From a virus: a DNA stretch of 36,913 nt. The position numbers and the translations under genes are program-made. The notes under the pieces were generated by a model. The model was given only the letters and a program-made list of their open reading frames with translations, was not told the DNA's origin and did not search any database. This document shows positions 4,153 to 12,068 of the stretch, piece after piece (position 1 is the stretch's first letter; each line of letters begins with the position of its first letter). The DNA is taken from positions 1-36,913 of IMG/VR virus record IMGVR_UViG_3300021197_000526; one strand, 5' to 3'.

Positions 4153-4177
4153 TTGCCTCAGTGGATTGATTCATACG
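4153..4177 (-). promoter_or_regulatory. CAATCCACT element, copy C
   Basis: Minus-strand sequence TATGAATCAATCCACTGAGG, one of five similar copies (see 8329, 10808, 12555, 24351). It covers the last codons and stop of the methyltransferase and ends at the next start codon. Candidate phage RNA polymerase promoter or regulator site; function inferred from recurrence only. Confidence 0.35.
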
Positions 4178-5048
4178 ATAAAATTGCAGAGCCCAGTACC
4201 TGAGGTATTTGTGGAACAACCGCGTTACCTAATTGCTTAAGTCGGTCCACCCGTCCGGGAAACCCATCAACCACTCGGGGAATTGAGGGTTGAGTTTTCC
4301 ATTGAGAAGTTTCTTGGGCAAATGCGATATGCTCTTCCGTGACCACGAGCCGCCCCACTCCGACAGATACCCCCCCGTCTTGTGATTCCCCGCTGTTGGT
4401 GTCGGCCACACCATCGCCGGAACTGTTCCCTGCGACTCGAAGGGATCTTTCCCATTGAGCATCGCCCTGGCTTCCTGCCGACAGAGCTCCCCCTTCAACA
4501 CCTTGGCCCGTAACATTCGGACGTTCCCTTCGTTCGGTCTCGTGTTGCTGCAAGGGGTAGGCCACGATCCAGATCCGGTCCCTTTGATGAGGCGCGCCAA
4601 CGGCACTAGCGGGTATACAGTGCCATTCAGCGCAATACCCGATCTCGCAGAGATTTTGTAAGACCAGGGTAAGCCCCTTAGAGCGAAGGGCTGATACATT
4701 TTCAATAATTGCCCACGCTGGCCGTACATCTCGGATGAGTCGAAACATCTCCGACCAGAGGCTGGAACGCTCGCCAATGATCCCGACTCCCTTTCCCGCT
4801 CCGCTGATGTCCTGACACGGAAATCCCCCCGTGATGACTGTTGGAACAATTCCATCTGCTTGTAGTCGTTCAACGGTTAGTGTCCTTATGTCCCCGTACA
4901 TCGGAACGTCGGGCCAGTGTTTCTTAAGTACGAGTTGAGCCTTCTCATCCTGCTCGCAGAACGCGACGGTCTCGAACCCGTCCGTCCGTTCCAGTCCCAG
5001 GCTGAACCCACCAATACCCGCAAAGAGATCAAGTACCTTGTGCTTCAT
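4158..5048 (-). CDS. DNA (cytosine-5) methyltransferase
   Basis: A 296-residue complete C5 methyltransferase. Visible motifs: I, LDLFAGIGGFSLGLE (residues 6-20); IV, GGFPCQDIS with catalytic Cys78; VI, ENV (116-118); VIII, QRDRIWIVA (155-163); a short Gly/Ser-rich target-recognition region; and IX-X, RVVDGFPGRVDRLKQLGNAVVPQ-type ending. It would transfer methyl from S-adenosylmethionine to cytosine C5, and in a phage it most likely protects against host restriction. No cognate restriction enzyme is visible. The start overlaps the upstream stop (TAATG). The region from 4229 to 4873 also encodes a second ORF in another frame, described separately. Target sequence cannot be read from the protein. 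Confidence 0.93.
   Translation of the reverse strand: MKHKVLDLFAGIGGFSLGLERTDGFETVAFCEQDEKAQLVLKKHWPDVPMYGDIRTLTVERLQADGIVPTVITGGFPCQDISGAGKGVGIIGERSSLWSEMFRLIRDVRPAWAIIENVSALRSKGLTLVLQNLCEIGYCAEWHCIPASAVGAPHQRDRIWIVAYPLQQHETERRERPNVTGQGVEGGALSAGSQGDAQWERSLRVAGNSSGDGVADTNSGESQDGGVSVGVGRLVVTEEHIAFAQETSQWKTQPSIPRVVDGFPGRVDRLKQLGNAVVPQIPQVLGSAILSYESIH
4229..4873 (-). CDS. Overprinted ORF inside the C5 methyltransferase gene
   Basis: A 214-codon ORF in a different frame, lying wholly within the methyltransferase gene. The translation is not random. It reads ALNGTVYPLVPLARLIKGTG, SWPTPCSNTRPNEG, WPTPTAGNHKTGG and LNPQFPEWLMGFPDGWTDL, which is the signature of a protein family (WPTPTA…LNPxFVEWLMGFPxGWT) that I know as separate genes near phage methyltransferases. 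Those blocks fall exactly on the DNA for motif VIII and motif IX of the methyltransferase. The start is a TTG with AAGGA about nine bases upstream; an ATG at 4855 is an alternative. Whether it is translated, or is a frame echo of conserved methyltransferase DNA, is open. Confidence 0.45.
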   Translation of the reverse strand: MNDYKQMELFQQSSRGDFRVRTSAERERESGSLASVPASGRRCFDSSEMYGQRGQLLKMYQPFALRGLPWSYKISARSGIALNGTVYPLVPLARLIKGTGSGSWPTPCSNTRPNEGNVRMLRAKVLKGELCRQEARAMLNGKDPFESQGTVPAMVWPTPTAGNHKTGGYLSEWGGSWSRKSISHLPKKLLNGKLNPQFPEWLMGFPDGWTDLSN

Positions 5049-5275
5049 TAGTCTTTAGGAACTCGAAGCCCCGCTCCTTCCATCCACTCAAGAATGATCG
5101 GATCGTTCTGCAACTCTGCTTGAAGTTTCAATAGTGCCTTCTCCCCAATCGCCTGAACGCGCTGACGGCTGATGGGTTTCCCCAACGCTACCGTTATGTA
5201 GTCCGTGATGTCTTGCCAGGTCCAAGGCCCTCTGGACTCGTACCCAGTAGGCGTCTGTGCTGGGTTTGCTCGCAC
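5048..5275 (-). CDS. Small sigma-70 region 4-like helix-turn-helix protein
   Basis: With the chosen start, a 75-residue protein whose core WTWQDITDYITVALGKPISR then QRVQAIGEKALLKLQ matches the region 4 helix-turn-helix of sigma-70 factors (…ISRQRVxQIExKALxKLR). It could bind DNA or touch host RNA polymerase. Start: a GTG at 5275 has GGAGG eight bases upstream. An ATG at 5401 would give 117 residues but places the extra part entirely inside the lysozyme catalytic region in another frame. Even with the short form it overlaps the lysozyme 3' end by 188 nt. The stop overlaps the methyltransferase start (TAATG). Confidence 0.6.
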   Translation of the reverse strand: MRANPAQTPTGYESRGPWTWQDITDYITVALGKPISRQRVQAIGEKALLKLQAELQNDPIILEWMEGAGLRVPKD

Positions 5276-5792
5276 CTTTCGGACCTCCGTTCCAGATACG
5301 TGCAAAGGTTTCGTAGTTTCCTTCGGGAGCCCATCGGTCCAGGTATGTCCAGAAGATTCGTTTGGCATATTTGAGGTTCCTGCAATCGTCATAGGTTCCA
5401 CCTATTGCCGGGTCGTGATCTTTGGCGTCTTGCCAACACGCCCGCGAGATTTGTAAGGGTCCAAGTGAACGCCCCCCATCCCCCAAAGCATTCGCAGGGT
5501 CGGGGTGTCCCCCGCTCTCAACCTGGCGAATGGCTTCGCACAACTCAGAAGGGAACATCAGATACATCTGTCCCGTCCCATTCTGATAAGCGTCCGGTAC
5601 GGGGGTCGTACTTAAGACTGGTGCAGACCCCGGTGTCCCCAGTGTATCTGTTTTTGAGTACACGGATTGTCGTGGTGTCTGAGGAGTCTGCGTCTTGCTG
5701 GTCCCTTTCCAGCCCAATGCAAATGTCAGACAGCTGAGCGATGCTGCCACTGCCCCGCAAATGGGCCAGCGAGACTTGTCCACCTTCTTCAT
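5088..5792 (-). CDS. Endolysin, i-type (destabilase-like) lysozyme with possible signal anchor
   Basis: Catalytic region: LCEAIRQVESGG with the probable catalytic Glu, RSLGPLQISRACWQDA, GGTYDDCRN, and FARIWNGGPKGASKPSTDAY then WVRVQRAL, the pattern of phage destabilase/i-type lysozymes that cleave peptidoglycan. Two starts are plausible. The ATG at 5792 has GGGAG five bases upstream and gives 234 residues starting MKKVDKSRW, a hydrophobic stretch (about residues 10-28) and a Thr/Pro/Ser linker, like a signal peptide or signal-anchor. It overlaps the helicase gene by 248 nt in another frame. The ATG at 5567 gives a 159-residue cytoplasmic lysozyme beginning near the helicase stop, with a weak ribosome site. 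The C-terminal 60 codons overlap the sigma-like gene. Confidence 0.75.
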   Translation of the reverse strand: MKKVDKSRWPICGAVAASLSCLTFALGWKGTSKTQTPQTPRQSVYSKTDTLGTPGSAPVLSTTPVPDAYQNGTGQMYLMFPSELCEAIRQVESGGHPDPANALGDGGRSLGPLQISRACWQDAKDHDPAIGGTYDDCRNLKYAKRIFWTYLDRWAPEGNYETFARIWNGGPKGASKPSTDAYWVRVQRALDLARHHGLHNGSVGETHQPSARSGDWGEGTIETSSRVAERSDHS

Positions 5793-7158
5793 GGCTTCTC
5801 CCTTCGGGTCGTTTGAGGTGACTGACGATGATCAGTGAAATCTGCAACTCTTCGACGAGCGATCTCAGCTTGGTCATCGTGTTGTCGAGGAGGCGTCTCT
5901 CATCACCCTCCCCAATCCCGGACACCACAATGCTGAGGTGATCCAGAAAGATATGTGTGCAGCCCATACCTCGGGCCATGAAGCGGATACGGCTCAGGAG
6001 ATTGTCGGAGCCAACAGATCCCCAGTGATCGTAGAGAATGACGCGGCCACTTCCGACCGTGGCTTCAAAGGCTTCACGCTTCTGTTCTTCAGTGATGCCC
6101 GCTTCTACCCAACGGTGTGGAGGGCAGTGAAGATGTAGGCCCATGAGATTGCGGGCCGTCTGCTTTGGATTCTCTTCGAGGGCCAAGAGGCCCACAGTGT
6201 AGCCCTTCTCGATCAGCCACAGGTTTACATGAGCACCGACAAGGGTCTTGCCCTGGCCGGTCCCCGAAGTAAGTGTGACCACCTCGCCCTGCCGGATGCC
6301 TTTGGTCTTGGCGTTCACTCCAGCCCAGGGCCACTCCACGGACTCCGCCTCGGTCTCGTCAATGATGCGATCCCAAAGTTCGGTGCCGGGGATAACCCCA
6401 TCAGGCCGGTAAGGCTGAGCCTCCCACATAGCGGAGATCAGTTCCTTAGACCTCCCCGCCACCAGCATCTCACTAGCATCCTTAAGGGGGAGTGATGCTA
6501 TCGCCGCCTTCCCTGGCGATAACTGCATCGCACACTCAACCGCTGCGTCCTGTCCTGGCTCGTCGTTGTCAAACATGAAGACGACAAGCTCGTAAGTCTC
6601 AAGCCACTCAAGATTGCGGCGGACAGCCTTGGCGGCACCCTTGGCCCCGGAGGGCACAGAGACGACGGGCCAGCGGTTTCCCTGAGCTTGCGATACCGAC
6701 ATGGCATCCAGCTCCCCCTCAGTAATGATGATCCGCTTGCCACCCTCACCCCATAGTCTCTTCCCCCATAGGCTGAGGTGGCGTCCATTCCCAACGATGT
6801 TGAAGTCCTTGGTCCTGGTGCGGAGCTTCTGGGCAATGAGGCGGCCATCATCGTTGTGATAGTTGGCAACCTGAACTGTCTGCCCTCGGTGCTGCGACAG
6901 CCCATACCCAAACTTTCGGCAAGTCTCTTCTGTGATCTGTCGCTGTTGAAGAGCCCGGTAGTCCACAGGCAGAAGGCCCGACTCAGTAGGAGCCGGTGTC
7001 GCAGTGGACACCTCACCATTCGCGTGCTCGTAGTGACCACAGCCGAAGCAGTAGCCATGACCATCATCGTACCGGGCCAGGTTGTCACCGCTCTTGCAAC
7101 TTGGGCAAGGCTCGTGTGACACGAAGTTGCTGTCTTGATCAGATTGTGTAGTAGGCAT
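5545..7158 (-). CDS. DNA primase-helicase, T7 gp4-like
   Basis: A 537-residue fused primase and hexameric helicase. A zinc ribbon is formed by Cys18, Cys21, Cys37 and Cys40. A TOPRIM primase domain follows (IIITEGELDAMS around 144-154; FMFDNDEPG around 194-202). The RecA-like helicase has Walker A TSGTGQGKT (about 297-305), Walker B HIFLDHLSIVVSG, and the conserved LRGSGSIAQLSD region near the C-terminus. It unwinds DNA and primes lagging-strand synthesis with the phage polymerase. The start has GGGGAAG upstream and overlaps the small HTH gene by 20 nt. Its last 248 nt also encode the possible N-terminus of the lysozyme in another frame. Confidence 0.95.
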   Translation of the reverse strand: MPTTQSDQDSNFVSHEPCPSCKSGDNLARYDDGHGYCFGCGHYEHANGEVSTATPAPTESGLLPVDYRALQQRQITEETCRKFGYGLSQHRGQTVQVANYHNDDGRLIAQKLRTRTKDFNIVGNGRHLSLWGKRLWGEGGKRIIITEGELDAMSVSQAQGNRWPVVSVPSGAKGAAKAVRRNLEWLETYELVVFMFDNDEPGQDAAVECAMQLSPGKAAIASLPLKDASEMLVAGRSKELISAMWEAQPYRPDGVIPGTELWDRIIDETEAESVEWPWAGVNAKTKGIRQGEVVTLTSGTGQGKTLVGAHVNLWLIEKGYTVGLLALEENPKQTARNLMGLHLHCPPHRWVEAGITEEQKREAFEATVGSGRVILYDHWGSVGSDNLLSRIRFMARGMGCTHIFLDHLSIVVSGIGEGDERRLLDNTMTKLRSLVEELQISLIIVSHLKRPEGRSHEEGGQVSLAHLRGSGSIAQLSDICIGLERDQQDADSSDTTTIRVLKNRYTGDTGVCTSLKYDPRTGRLSEWDGTDVSDVPF

Positions 7159-8328: not shown

Positions 8329-8353
8329 ATGCACTAGTGGATTGATTCATGCG
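8329..8353 (-). promoter_or_regulatory. CAATCCACT element, copy B
   Basis: Minus-strand GCATGAATCAATCCACTAGT directly after the RNA polymerase stop and 15 nt before the SSB start. It matches copies at 4153 and 10808 over about 18 of 20 bases. A candidate phage promoter for the SSB-to-exonuclease block, or an operator; its CACTAGTG part is palindromic. Confidence 0.45.
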
Positions 8354-10743
8354 TAGAAATACTGACTCTGACGCACTTGTTCTATGTCCAGATTCCCCCG
8401 CTGTGGAGGCTCTGGCAATGTAACTTCCTTCGGCAGATAGTGGGAAATCTCATTAAGGAAATCCTCCATTATGTTGCCATTAAATATATCGATCACTGAG
8501 TCCAGTAGGTTGGCTCGGATCACTGGCATGTCTGTGGCCAGGCCCATGACTGCATCGTGAATAGTGGATTGAAACGTAATACCTTGAGCCGCATTCTTTA
8601 GTGAGGTCAGTGTAATAACAGCCCCATCTACAGAATGTATCTTGTTGGGCGCAAACCCATTACAGGCCCTACGCATACAGAGCTTACCTGTGCCGTACCG
8701 AATCTTATGCTGCCGAATGACATCACCGATAACGGTCTTGACGCTCTGGCTCTGCCAGGTTTCGTAGGCTTGCTTGACCATGAACCCGGTCGGGGTTGTC
8801 CAACGAACCGGCACGTTGTTCTCAATACACACCCTCGCCACCGCACGGAACCAGTCCATAGCCTTCTGAGCTTCACCCACCACATCTCCAATGCTCTGCC
8901 ACACTAGGTCGGCAAGGAAGTGGGGAGGCCGGAATGTTTCCTCGAAGCCGAATGGGTTCTCTTGCTTACGCTTCTTGAGCTCATCGATGAACCACTCTCG
9001 AACATAGTCCCGACAAGCCCATAGCGTCCCCGAATATGGAACGACCATCGTGCTGCGTTTGGTGGTCTTCCTTGTGATCCCAAAGGCCAACCACTTGCGG
9101 GCCATCTCACTGCCGTCCTCCTTCAACCGCCGAACCGTAGCGTCTGCTACATCCTGGTAGATGTCTTGCGGTACAGCGGTTGGGAGGACGTTGGTAGCGA
9201 GAGCCCCCACCGGGTCTCGCATCAGCAGCGAGTAGAGCTGTAGCCCGTTACAACTGCCATCAACAGATATGGGCAGGTGTGTAACAAAGCCCCGGCCCTG
9301 CTTCAGATAGTTCGCCCACTCATGACAGAAGGCGAGGAACAGTTCAGGCTCTTCGGCCCTCCCCCACAGTGAAGTCGTGCCGCGTGGGTCGTCGGCTATC
9401 GTGGTGATCATGTCCCGGTTGGCATGGACCCACTCGACACGACCATCCAGCGTGGATTTATCTTTGCCGAAGACGTTGGCCCCGTGGATCGCAAGCCACC
9501 TCTCGTGTTCATCAGTCTCCATAGGCTTGCCGACTGCGGCATTAAGCACAGCCCTGGCAACCTTCGAGCCCTGCGGCTGAAGGAAGTAAACACGAGGATA
9601 CTTTCGTGAACGGAAATCCATGTACCAAGGAAAGAAGACACTCTGTCCCCGGAACTTGTTCGCCATCCAGAATATCTTTGTCATCTGTAGCCGCTTCGAC
9701 TCGGCACTACGGTTCTCGGCATGAATCCGGGCGGCAGCTTTACGCCACTTGCGACGGGCTTCTTCGTTGTCCGCAATGTCCGCAGGCTTGCTCGGGATCT
9801 TATCGCCCACCGGGCTCGGTAGATCCCCTACCTCAATGTCATTCTCCCAGCAGTACAGGAGCGTATCGAGCACTGGCTCGTTGATATTCCACTCGACACG
9901 CTGCAACACATTGACCGAGGCCATGTCCTGCTCACACCCCGCCTCGTTCAAGTAGTCGAGATGATGCCGATCATTCGTCTTCACCAGTGGCCTGGGGTGT
10001 ACGTTCTCTGTCAGGTAGCCCCCGGTGTAGACGTCTACCCAGTCCGCTGGCCTCTCGACCATCGGCAGGTACATAGGTGACAGATCCTCTGCGTACTTAT
10101 GCGCCTCCTTCATCCAGGCCTGAAGTTCATCAGTCGCATGGACGTAGGTTTCCGACTTGCCCAACAAGCCCCGACGAGTCGTGATCTCAATGATCCCGGT
10201 GGACACACGCATCAACTCGATCAAGGTCATCCCGATCTTGAGCCGCATGTTCCGGGGCCACTTGCTGAACTGGAGGTTGACGAACTTCTCTGTGTTCGAC
10301 AGGAACTTACGCTTCGCATCGTAGCCGGGGATCTTCTTGACCTGATCGGCTTGAAGCCTCCAAAGGTCTGGATGCTTATCCTTCAGCTCTCGCCACCGCA
10401 CCTCGTCCTCGAGAACCCTCGACACCTTGAACGCCGCCTTGGTGAGACGCTCGTGCATCGAGATCGAGTCGATCACGGTACGAGCCGACAACGCGGCGAC
10501 AATCGAGACGTCCAGGATGTCGATGTATGGGTGGCATGAGTTACGGTTGCCGATGGGCTGGCCCTCGACACGTTTCTTCCACGCCCTGATCTCTTCGGCC
10601 AGGCGATCAACTGATTCTGTAAGCAGCCGCTTGCCCAATGGGCTTTGGCTCTCGACTCCATGCTCGGCTGTTCGTTGGACCTTCCGCCAGTAGCGGTTCT
10701 GTCCCAACTCTCTCATCTCAGCTTCAAGGTCTGATTGACGCAT
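8347..10743 (-). CDS. Phage single-subunit RNA polymerase, T7 gp1-like
   Basis: A 798-residue polymerase. Palm motif A ISVDGSCNGLQ holds the first catalytic Asp (about residue 490). The fingers helix GITRKTTKRSTMVVPYSGT matches the T7 O-helix region with its Arg, Lys and Tyr. Motif C STIHDAVMG holds the second Asp (about 727). The end, QSQYFYA, recalls the T7 C-terminal FA foot. It should transcribe phage genes from its own promoters. Start: ATG at 10743 (MRQSDLEAEMRELG); an in-frame GTG at 10773 is possible but the extra ten residues are not family-like. It is preceded by a terminator and a CAATCCACT copy, so the gene has its own transcription unit. Confidence 0.96.
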   Translation of the reverse strand: MRQSDLEAEMRELGQNRYWRKVQRTAEHGVESQSPLGKRLLTESVDRLAEEIRAWKKRVEGQPIGNRNSCHPYIDILDVSIVAALSARTVIDSISMHERLTKAAFKVSRVLEDEVRWRELKDKHPDLWRLQADQVKKIPGYDAKRKFLSNTEKFVNLQFSKWPRNMRLKIGMTLIELMRVSTGIIEITTRRGLLGKSETYVHATDELQAWMKEAHKYAEDLSPMYLPMVERPADWVDVYTGGYLTENVHPRPLVKTNDRHHLDYLNEAGCEQDMASVNVLQRVEWNINEPVLDTLLYCWENDIEVGDLPSPVGDKIPSKPADIADNEEARRKWRKAAARIHAENRSAESKRLQMTKIFWMANKFRGQSVFFPWYMDFRSRKYPRVYFLQPQGSKVARAVLNAAVGKPMETDEHERWLAIHGANVFGKDKSTLDGRVEWVHANRDMITTIADDPRGTTSLWGRAEEPELFLAFCHEWANYLKQGRGFVTHLPISVDGSCNGLQLYSLLMRDPVGALATNVLPTAVPQDIYQDVADATVRRLKEDGSEMARKWLAFGITRKTTKRSTMVVPYSGTLWACRDYVREWFIDELKKRKQENPFGFEETFRPPHFLADLVWQSIGDVVGEAQKAMDWFRAVARVCIENNVPVRWTTPTGFMVKQAYETWQSQSVKTVIGDVIRQHKIRYGTGKLCMRRACNGFAPNKIHSVDGAVITLTSLKNAAQGITFQSTIHDAVMGLATDMPVIRANLLDSVIDIFNGNIMEDFLNEISHYLPKEVTLPEPPQRGNLDIEQVRQSQYFYA

Positions 10744-10807
10744 GTTCTTGTTTCGTCCTTGGCTGTGGCACACTGTAACGCCACAGAAGTCAAACAGGGC
10801 AAGTCCG

Positions 10808-10831
10808 TTGCCACTGTGGATTGATTATGCC
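10808..10831 (-). promoter_or_regulatory. CAATCCACT element, copy A
   Basis: Minus-strand GGCATAATCAATCCACAGTG between the terminator (10832-10862) and the RNA polymerase start 65 nt downstream. It is the cleanest intergenic copy of the repeat. CCACAGTGG is palindromic. Position suggests a promoter, or a regulator site, for the polymerase gene. Confidence 0.5.
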
Positions 10832-10862
10832 AAAAGAAAACCCAAGGGGGTAAGCCCTTGGG
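10832..10862 (-). terminator. Intrinsic terminator after integrase/tRNA
   Basis: Minus strand: perfect 8-bp stem CCCAAGGG/CCCTTGGG (10855-10862 with 10841-10848), 6-nt loop, then TTTTCTTTT. It would stop transcription leaving the integrase and tRNA before the RNA polymerase gene. Confidence 0.85.
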
Positions 10863-10928
10863 AATCCTTGAGAAAGATATGTGTGGAGGAGTGGATGCAA
10901 TCTACACGGATTTTAAGTGCGTTGCAAG

Positions 10929-11016
10929 TGGTGCGAGCGGCGGGACTCGAACCCGCAACCCATTGAAAGGGGGCAGATTTTAAGTCTGCTGTGTATACCA
11001 GTTCCACCACGCTCGC
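10929..11016 (-). tRNA. tRNA-Leu(UAA), probable attP site
   Basis: A complete cloverleaf on the minus strand: acceptor stem GCGAGCG/CGCTCGC, D arm with GG, anticodon stem GCAGA/TCTGC around loop CTTAAAA (anticodon UAA), a long class II variable arm of leucine type, T loop GTTCGAGTC, discriminator A and encoded CCA. It lies 17 nt downstream of the integrase stop. In integrase-bearing T7-like phages the attP next to the integrase is usually a piece of a host tRNA gene, often tRNA-Leu. Here the whole gene is present, so it may both serve as attP and restore or supply a functional tRNA. It could be an independent phage tRNA; only the host attB would settle this. Confidence 0.93.
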
Positions 11017-11033
11017 CTCTCCTTGCCACACGC

Positions 11034-12068
11034 TTATGCCACAACGTCTAACACCAGACTAGGTTGTCGGTTAGGTTCCAAAGACGAAATAGCGTTGACC
11101 AGATTATGCGGAGCCAAATGAGCATAACGGAGCGTAATGTCCATCGTTTTATGGCCCGCCAAATCCTTGACCGTCAGGATCGGGACGCCACGCTGCACCA
11201 GTCGGGAGCAGAACGTATGCCGAAGGGCATGCATTACCTCCTCCCCGGTAGCGGGCCAACCCATATGAAGCCTCAGCCGGTTCCAACGATCTCTTAGGTG
11301 GTGCTTCTTCGTCCACTTGAACGGCCCCTCAGCCTCCCGGTCCATTGCGTTGACCGCCTCTTGTGCTGCTTGGGTCAATGGGACGCCACGCGGACTCTCA
11401 GACTTTGTGTCCGCCAAGATGGCGACGTCCCCTTGGATGTCTCGCCACTCAAGCCCACGGGTCTCGCTGACCCTGAGCCCGGTGTCGGCCTGGAACCGGA
11501 CCCAGTGGGCCATGTTGGGATTACCGAGGTGGTGGAAGTACGCGATCATCTCAGCGAGCTCATCATCAGTGAACCAGCGGAGCCGGTTGACCCCCTCTCG
11601 CATCCTCTGGATCTTAGGCTTCGAGTCGATGATGCCCAGATCCTTGGCGACCGTCAGGCACTTGCTTAGTGAAGCCATCTTCCGGTTGATGGTGGCGTTT
11701 GAGTTGCCCAGATCCTTGAGCGATAGGATCACCCGGTCCAGGGTGTAAAGGTCGATGGACTTCAGCGGCGTATCCAAGCCCACTAATGTCCCCACCAGCT
11801 TTGCGTTCCCGATCAAATGAGAACCAGACTTCGCATCGGACCAGTACCGAGCCGACACGTATTCGATCATTTGACCCAACGTCTTCGGGCGCTCGGACGT
11901 CCCCCGGTCTACGTCGCCCATGTTCGGACGGCGACCAGCAACAGCGTCCGCCTTGGCCTGGGCCTCCCAGACTTCCGCGTCCTCATAGTTGCGGAACTGT
12001 CTCCTCCACCGCTCGCCTTTGTGATTAACGGTAGCCTGAAATCCTCGTTCTCTCGCTTTGATTGTCAT
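11034..12068 (-). CDS. int: Tyrosine integrase (site-specific recombinase)
   Basis: A 344-residue phage integrase. An N-terminal arm-binding-type region (FQATVNHKGERWRRQFRNYE) is followed by a core-binding domain with a typical helical stretch. The catalytic domain has Arg in TGLRVSETRGLEWRDI (about 193), the HALRHTFCSRLVQRG box (about 282), GHKTMDITLRYAHL with the His and the nucleophile Tyr (about 316). It would recombine attP, probably the adjacent tRNA-Leu, with the host copy. The start overlaps the regulator stop as ATGA, so repressor and integrase are coupled. No excisionase is recognisable, though the small ORF at 12261 or early HTH-less proteins could serve. Confidence 0.95.
   Translation of the reverse strand: MTIKARERGFQATVNHKGERWRRQFRNYEDAEVWEAQAKADAVAGRRPNMGDVDRGTSERPKTLGQMIEYVSARYWSDAKSGSHLIGNAKLVGTLVGLDTPLKSIDLYTLDRVILSLKDLGNSNATINRKMASLSKCLTVAKDLGIIDSKPKIQRMREGVNRLRWFTDDELAEMIAYFHHLGNPNMAHWVRFQADTGLRVSETRGLEWRDIQGDVAILADTKSESPRGVPLTQAAQEAVNAMDREAEGPFKWTKKHHLRDRWNRLRLHMGWPATGEEVMHALRHTFCSRLVQRGVPILTVKDLAGHKTMDITLRYAHLAPHNLVNAISSLEPNRQPSLVLDVVA

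Follow-up and report, generated by a model that had tools for sequence, protein, structure and literature searches.

A phage C5-cytosine methyltransferase gene and a conserved second gene nested in its +1 frame: probable halves of one enzyme

Introduction

A C5-cytosine DNA methyltransferase gene of a T7-like virus contains a second long open reading frame on the same strand. Is this nested frame a gene, and if so, is its product a part of the methyltransferase? An earlier note, made from the sequence alone, had described the frame as a second protein family. It described members of this family as separate genes near phage methyltransferases, possibly born by overprinting, and offered two further readings: that these members are echoes of the methyltransferase frame, or that the product is a partner or regulator of the enzyme.

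The window analysed here is the whole stretch of DNA in which the locus lies, a 36,913-base virus record from IMG/VR. It holds T7-like replication genes, namely a single-subunit RNA polymerase, a primase-helicase, a family A DNA polymerase, SSB and RusA. Besides the phage's own T7-like RNA polymerase there is a tyrosine integrase (11034-12068, within 8347-12068, minus strand), so this T7-like phage is possibly temperate. A lysozyme-like open reading frame lies at 5088-5792 on the minus strand (Destabilase, E=4e-4, below Pfam's cut-off). Its start is within the primase-helicase gene (5545-7158), 248 nt in, and it overlaps an open reading frame at 5048-5401 as well.

Layout of the locus

The larger gene, alpha, occupies 4158..5048 on the minus strand and encodes a C5-cytosine DNA methyltransferase of 296 amino acids with motifs I-VIII and X, and no canonical motif IX. 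The nested gene, beta (4229..4873, minus strand), lies entirely within alpha in the +1 frame and encodes 214 amino acids from a TTG start codon. Its frame is open over 645 nt, as the earlier note had stated.

Beta has start signals of its own. A Shine-Dalgarno-like AAGGA (4883..4887, minus strand) stands 9 nt upstream of the TTG. A beta-frame TAA at 4877..4879 (minus strand), two codons upstream of TTG4873, excludes a beta start further upstream in frame. Close relatives have ATG, GTG or TTG in the beta start column, with AAGGA or AAGGAG at the same place, and in other clades the Shine-Dalgarno-like site and the beta start codon move together. Such a site (at least 4 nt) precedes an in-frame beta start in 152 of 201 genes, against 78.6 expected from synonymous shuffles.

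The peptides WPTPTA, VYPLVPLARL and LNPQFPEWLMGFPDGWTDL, by which the family had been recognised, are all present in the beta frame. The claim that they sit over methyltransferase motifs VIII and IX holds in part. The VYPLVPLARL block (4589-4642, minus strand) lies over alpha motif VIII, where it is the beta reading of GAPHQRDRIW (4569..4598, minus strand), and LNPQFPEWLMGFPDGWTDL (4238..4294, minus strand; M203 and G204 invariant) lies over alpha RVVDGFPGRVDRL. WPTPTA, the second of two WPTP blocks (4391..4408, minus strand), lies over alpha VADTNS and not over motif VIII. At least 90% of 101 betas share its T158 and P159, and the same holds for T106 and P107 of the first block (4547..4564, minus strand). 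Alpha RVVDGFPGRVDRL, which had been taken for motif IX, is not canonical; the sequence resembling motif IX sits in the nested frame.

A module with the pattern RPNEGNVR(M/L)LR..VL.G....EA..ML.GK.PF..QG occurs at 4424-4549 of the window (beta residues 109-150) and also in loci L014 and L188. It recurs between the WPTP blocks of divergent betas and is modelled with high confidence as a helical hairpin, as if recognition modules were being swapped. The beta frame of L014 (L014:2338-4143, plus strand) runs to 602 codons, beyond the end of alpha, and contains many more WPTP repeats; it is a long repeat protein downstream of motif IX.

Alpha as a probable catalytic subunit

Motifs I, IV (PCQ), VI (ENV) and VIII are present in order in alpha. 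The motif IV block GFPCQDIS, with the catalytic PCQ (4803..4826, minus strand), lies inside the overlap and is conserved in 75 alphas. PF00145 matches alpha with E=8.6e-41, but only residues 4-169 align, to positions 2-166 of a profile of 324, and TIGR00675 aligns to residues 5-172 only. By sequence, alpha matches Pfam, TIGRFAM and M.HhaI only as far as motif VIII. An in-frame motif IX is absent from alpha, the PF00145 alignment stopping at residue 169, and alpha tails reach a median of -6.9 with a motif IX score matrix, against 24-51 for ordinary enzymes.

Motif X is present, as RLKQLGNAVVPQ (4209..4244, minus strand), a GN..VP helix in which G274, N275, V278 and P279 are invariant in 75 alphas. 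The AlphaFold2 model of alpha ends in helices 266-274 and 280-295. Its catalytic domain and final helices are confident, residues 192-230 fall below pLDDT 50, and alignment with M.HhaI gives Z 25.6 and covers 220 of 327 residues.

Openness and selection in the beta frame

The openness of the beta frame was compared with shuffles that swap synonymous codons while alpha protein and codon usage stay fixed. Shuffles of the window's methyltransferase leave a mean of 8.2 stops in the beta frame, where none is seen, and none of 300 was open; the third frame behaves as expected, with 8 stops seen against 7.7. Across 107 loci, there are zero beta-frame stops against an expected mean of 6.2. In about 106 divergent viral loci the alpha and beta frames are jointly open over about 80 to 380 codons, and the third frame of the fetched viral loci has 4 to 34 stops. 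Since beta was used to find these viral loci, the openness of their beta frames follows in part from how they were chosen. Another 80 loci were therefore fetched by alpha alone; every one of them matches the beta profile in the +1 relation. No beta match was found in 19 ordinary methyltransferases with in-frame motif IX from the genomes searched. Both frames are kept open in hundreds of divergent viral and bacterial loci.

Substitution patterns point the same way. Because beta is in the +1 frame, the alpha wobble base is the second codon position of beta. A set of 72 genes was picked by alpha, with no use of beta. In the alpha frame, their fourfold third-base identity is 0.285 ahead of the overlap and 0.295 beyond it, compared with 0.502 inside the overlap over motifs IV-VIII and 0.857 (column bootstrap 0.778-0.912) under the LNPxWVEWLMGFPxGWTDL end of beta. 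Under this end, the most variable base is alpha codon position 1, which is beta's wobble, and beta identity (0.540) exceeds alpha identity (0.510). Between motifs VIII and IX both frames are variable, with identities of 0.147 and 0.173.

A methyltransferase-only null, in which both alpha proteins are fixed along with the codon sharing observed outside the overlap, predicts 48% identity (maximum 55%) between the beta of the window and that of its relative L006; the observed identity is 75%. In nine of 12 relatives tested, beta identity is above the null maximum, or equal to it within 0.01, and in the three most distant it is not clearly above the null. Taken together, the shuffles, the fourfold sites and this null bear out a second protein family under selection in the other frame. 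The family members are all in alternate frames, yet synonymous changes are not free and stops are not common, which goes against the suggestion that they are frame echoes. By these comparisons, beta is a real conserved gene under selection.

The beta protein has no match among the sequences of solved structures, profile-profile comparison of whole beta with the 19 ordinary methyltransferases gave no signal, and its N-terminal two thirds show no resemblance to anything known outside beta's own family. AlphaFold2 models beta alone poorly (pLDDT 61, pTM 0.33), a result compatible with a subunit that folds only in complex.

Motifs IX and X move between frames

Motif IX was sought in beta with a score matrix built from 19 ordinary methyltransferases of the genomes searched. 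The window beta scores 9.9 and the family median is 6.7, against a 99th percentile of 5.9 for shuffled betas; the best-scoring window is LNPxWVEWLMGFP in 93 of 101 betas. Because the motif is short, this match is of moderate strength alone. Natural exchange of the motif between frames is the stronger evidence.

In four loci (L187, L224, L251 and L362), of which two are viral contigs and two are Rickettsiales assemblies, it is alpha that contains the segment RLNPDWVEWLMGFPSSWT, which continues in frame to motif X; beta is without motif IX, and the motif layout is like that of an ordinary methyltransferase. The beta frame in three of these loci that were checked has 1-4 stops upstream. A rough tree groups these re-joined loci as one clade (support 0.999) that nests close to the relatives of the window. 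Because the tree is rooted at its midpoint and has one ordinary enzyme falling within, it is not leaned on for direction. The opposite arrangement occurs in Streptomyces phage Vash (L314), Gordonia phage Upyo (L316) and an archaeal bin (L188), where alpha ends after motif VIII and beta has both IX and X. In Vash and Upyo, alpha alone would therefore be without IX and X, and their betas also match phrog_116, a single-chain methyltransferase profile, near its C-terminal end. In locus L021, alpha stops after motif VIII, motif IX is in beta and motif X is in a third open reading frame; here the beta frame is open, with motif IX intact, over about 190 codons in which the alpha frame has 18 stops.

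The commonest layout has motif IX in beta and X in alpha, and swaps occur in rare lineages only. Motif IX is in alpha or in beta, not both, in nearly every assessable locus, and complete loci almost always carry IX once and X once, as would be expected of the two halves of a single enzyme. A regular-expression census returned 12 loci with motif IX in both frames, but the listed tails put the true motif in beta only, and these look like false positives of the pattern.

The LNPxWVEWLMGFPxGWTDL end is thus most likely motif IX of the methyltransferase itself, shifted out of the alpha frame. The proposed birth of beta by overprinting therefore fits one part of the protein: the stretch over motifs IV-VIII looks overprinted, and the motif IX end does not. 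We lean, at somewhat better than even odds, towards the view that within this large and old family motifs IX and X have moved from one overlapping frame to the other, and that the N-terminal two thirds of beta were created by overprinting upon the ancient catalytic domain. The family's layouts would be IX in beta with X in alpha (most members), both in beta (some actinophages and the archaeal bin) and both in alpha, the last being a clade that includes Rickettsiales, in which the second frame has lost motif IX and gained stops upstream.

Family spread and annotation

A one-motif search of viral contigs gave at least 600 candidate stretches, of which at least 514 were confirmed, and 338 were confirmed in genomes across many phyla. 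Among about 330 loci there is no stand-alone beta gene. All the family matches that were examined share their DNA with a C5 methyltransferase, always in this +1 relation, so the proposed stand-alone family is not supported. Genes 53 and 54 of Upyo and genes 32 and 33 of Vash are annotated as separate genes, but their open reading frames overlap in this relation too. The nearest approach to a stand-alone beta is L021, with its roughly 190 beta codons without an open alpha frame. Separate-looking database members are probably the nested frame called alone or in part; gene callers that take one of two overlapping open reading frames, or a fragment, would explain them.

Large and old as the family is, no Pfam or NCBIfam model matches beta. 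The profile phrog_1008 ('DNA methyltransferase', 329 positions) is matched by all 101 betas of alignment A4 (best E=1e-42), and by the window beta with E=4.2e-16 (residues 5-212 to profile positions 36-281 of 329). Judged by these matches, phrog_1008 is the nested beta family itself. Under most matches in RefSeq plasmid and E. coli records only 'DNA cytosine methyltransferase' is annotated; some phage records, such as those of Paenibacillus phage Tadhana and K1ind3, annotate both open reading frames. In E. coli strain PCP07014 (L321:1501-2262, plus strand), a prophage alpha is marked as a pseudogene in RefSeq with an internal stop, and the beta frame is broken at about the same place. A Pseudodesulfovibrio bin has two tandem alpha/beta pairs side by side (L270 and L197), with the nested frame in both.

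No general survey of this overlap was found in the literature searched and, as far as that literature shows, the size and age of the family are not generally recognised. Since the RefSeq records examined usually annotate alpha alone, a clone of the annotated gene would be an incomplete enzyme, and methylation capacity inferred from it would be wrong. Hundreds of naturally occurring long overlaps between genes on one strand, together with natural re-joining events, also make the family a resource for tests of the evolution of dual-coding DNA.

Two polypeptides, probably one enzyme

We consider it probable (roughly 0.87) that the locus encodes one C5-cytosine methyltransferase as two polypeptides from overlapping frames, in the manner of M.EcoHK31I. 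This reading draws on the dual coding, selection on both frames, motif complementarity, start signals and rare exchange of IX and X between frames seen in the sequences compared. Alpha (296 aa) would form the catalytic, SAM-binding domain with motifs I-VIII, which motif X would close. Beta (214 aa) would be initiated independently inside alpha, from the Shine-Dalgarno-like site and TTG4873. It would provide motif IX, absent from alpha, and probably, through its variable WPTP region, much of the small DNA-recognition domain. Both subunits would be needed, and their heterodimer would act as a single enzyme, methylating cytosines of the phage DNA at a presumed target sequence. Orphan phage methyltransferases usually protect phage DNA from restriction, and here too methylation would most likely shield the phage against host restriction. 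Of the roles that the earlier note suggested for beta, that of a partner is the best reading, given motif IX complementarity and frame exchange.

Other explanations have to account for the same observations. If alpha alone were translated, the open second frame and its motifs would be by-products of alpha residues and codon usage; every family match is indeed in an alternate frame within methyltransferase genes, and many records annotate alpha only. Such a by-product should not, however, have zero stops in 107 loci where a mean of 6.2 is expected, fourfold sites constrained inside the overlap only, beta identity above the methyltransferase-only null in the closest relatives, or start signals at beta, nor should it stay open with motif IX in L021 despite 18 alpha-frame stops. 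On these comparisons it is already refuted at the level of selection, and is scarcely tenable. Beta might instead be translated as an independent protein (a regulator, inhibitor or anti-restriction factor) that merely shares the DNA. The novelty of its N-terminal two thirds would suit this, but the near-complementary motif IX content of alpha and beta, and the Vash and Upyo betas that also carry motif X where alpha stops after VIII, make it unlikely.

A further reading, in which ribosomes shift frame out of alpha and so make a single chain from motif VIII to IX, with no internal initiation at beta, is highly improbable. Frameshifting is known in phages, and the order VIII (alpha), IX (beta), X (alpha) would call for shifts at both junctions. 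These two shifts would, however, have to be in opposite directions. The start codon conserved in one column of the close clade as ATG, GTG or TTG, with its Shine-Dalgarno-like sequence, favours internal initiation, and the beta frame is constrained far upstream of motif VIII, which a shift after VIII would not demand.

Comparison with known systems

In M.EcoHK31I, the smaller open reading frame is reported to be nested, out of frame, in the larger one (Lee, Kam and Shaw, 1995); the smaller frame of the window likewise sits within the larger, in the +1 frame. M.EcoHK31I (YGGCCR) consists of two polypeptides, of which the larger carries motifs I-VIII and X and only motif IX is on the smaller; its predicted target-recognition domain has been placed on the larger subunit (PMC3404938). 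By this described motif split, alpha of the window, with I-VIII and X but without IX, resembles the larger subunit (PMC3404938), and beta, as the smaller polypeptide with the motif IX-like segment, resembles the smaller one, a likeness of moderate strength given how short the motif is. Unlike M.EcoHK31I, the window pair belongs to a phage, and no restriction enzyme was noted beside it. M.EcoHK31I itself was sought in plasmids and not found there.

M.AquI (CYCGRG), also a C5 methyltransferase, is divided between two polypeptides, the break falling close to the variable region (PMC3404938). The motif split of Vash and Upyo, with alpha reaching to VIII and beta carrying IX and X, is like that of M.AquI; the window differs in having motif X on alpha. 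Among annotated phage genes, ORF29 of Escherichia phage K1ind3 ('putative Mte8-like protein') lies fully inside ORF30 ('putative C-specific methylase') in GenBank, as beta does in alpha, and matches the beta profile with E=7.2e-23. It differs in its divergent IX-like end, LNPAHSRWLMGYPPEW, and its annotation gives no function; the PHROGs label of phrog_1008 is similarly silent on a partner subunit in another frame. The arrangement itself is already known from one bacterial enzyme that has been studied, M.EcoHK31I. Methyltransferases with two subunits read from two frames have passed for an oddity of one or two restriction systems; among phages and the hosts of phages they appear to be common.
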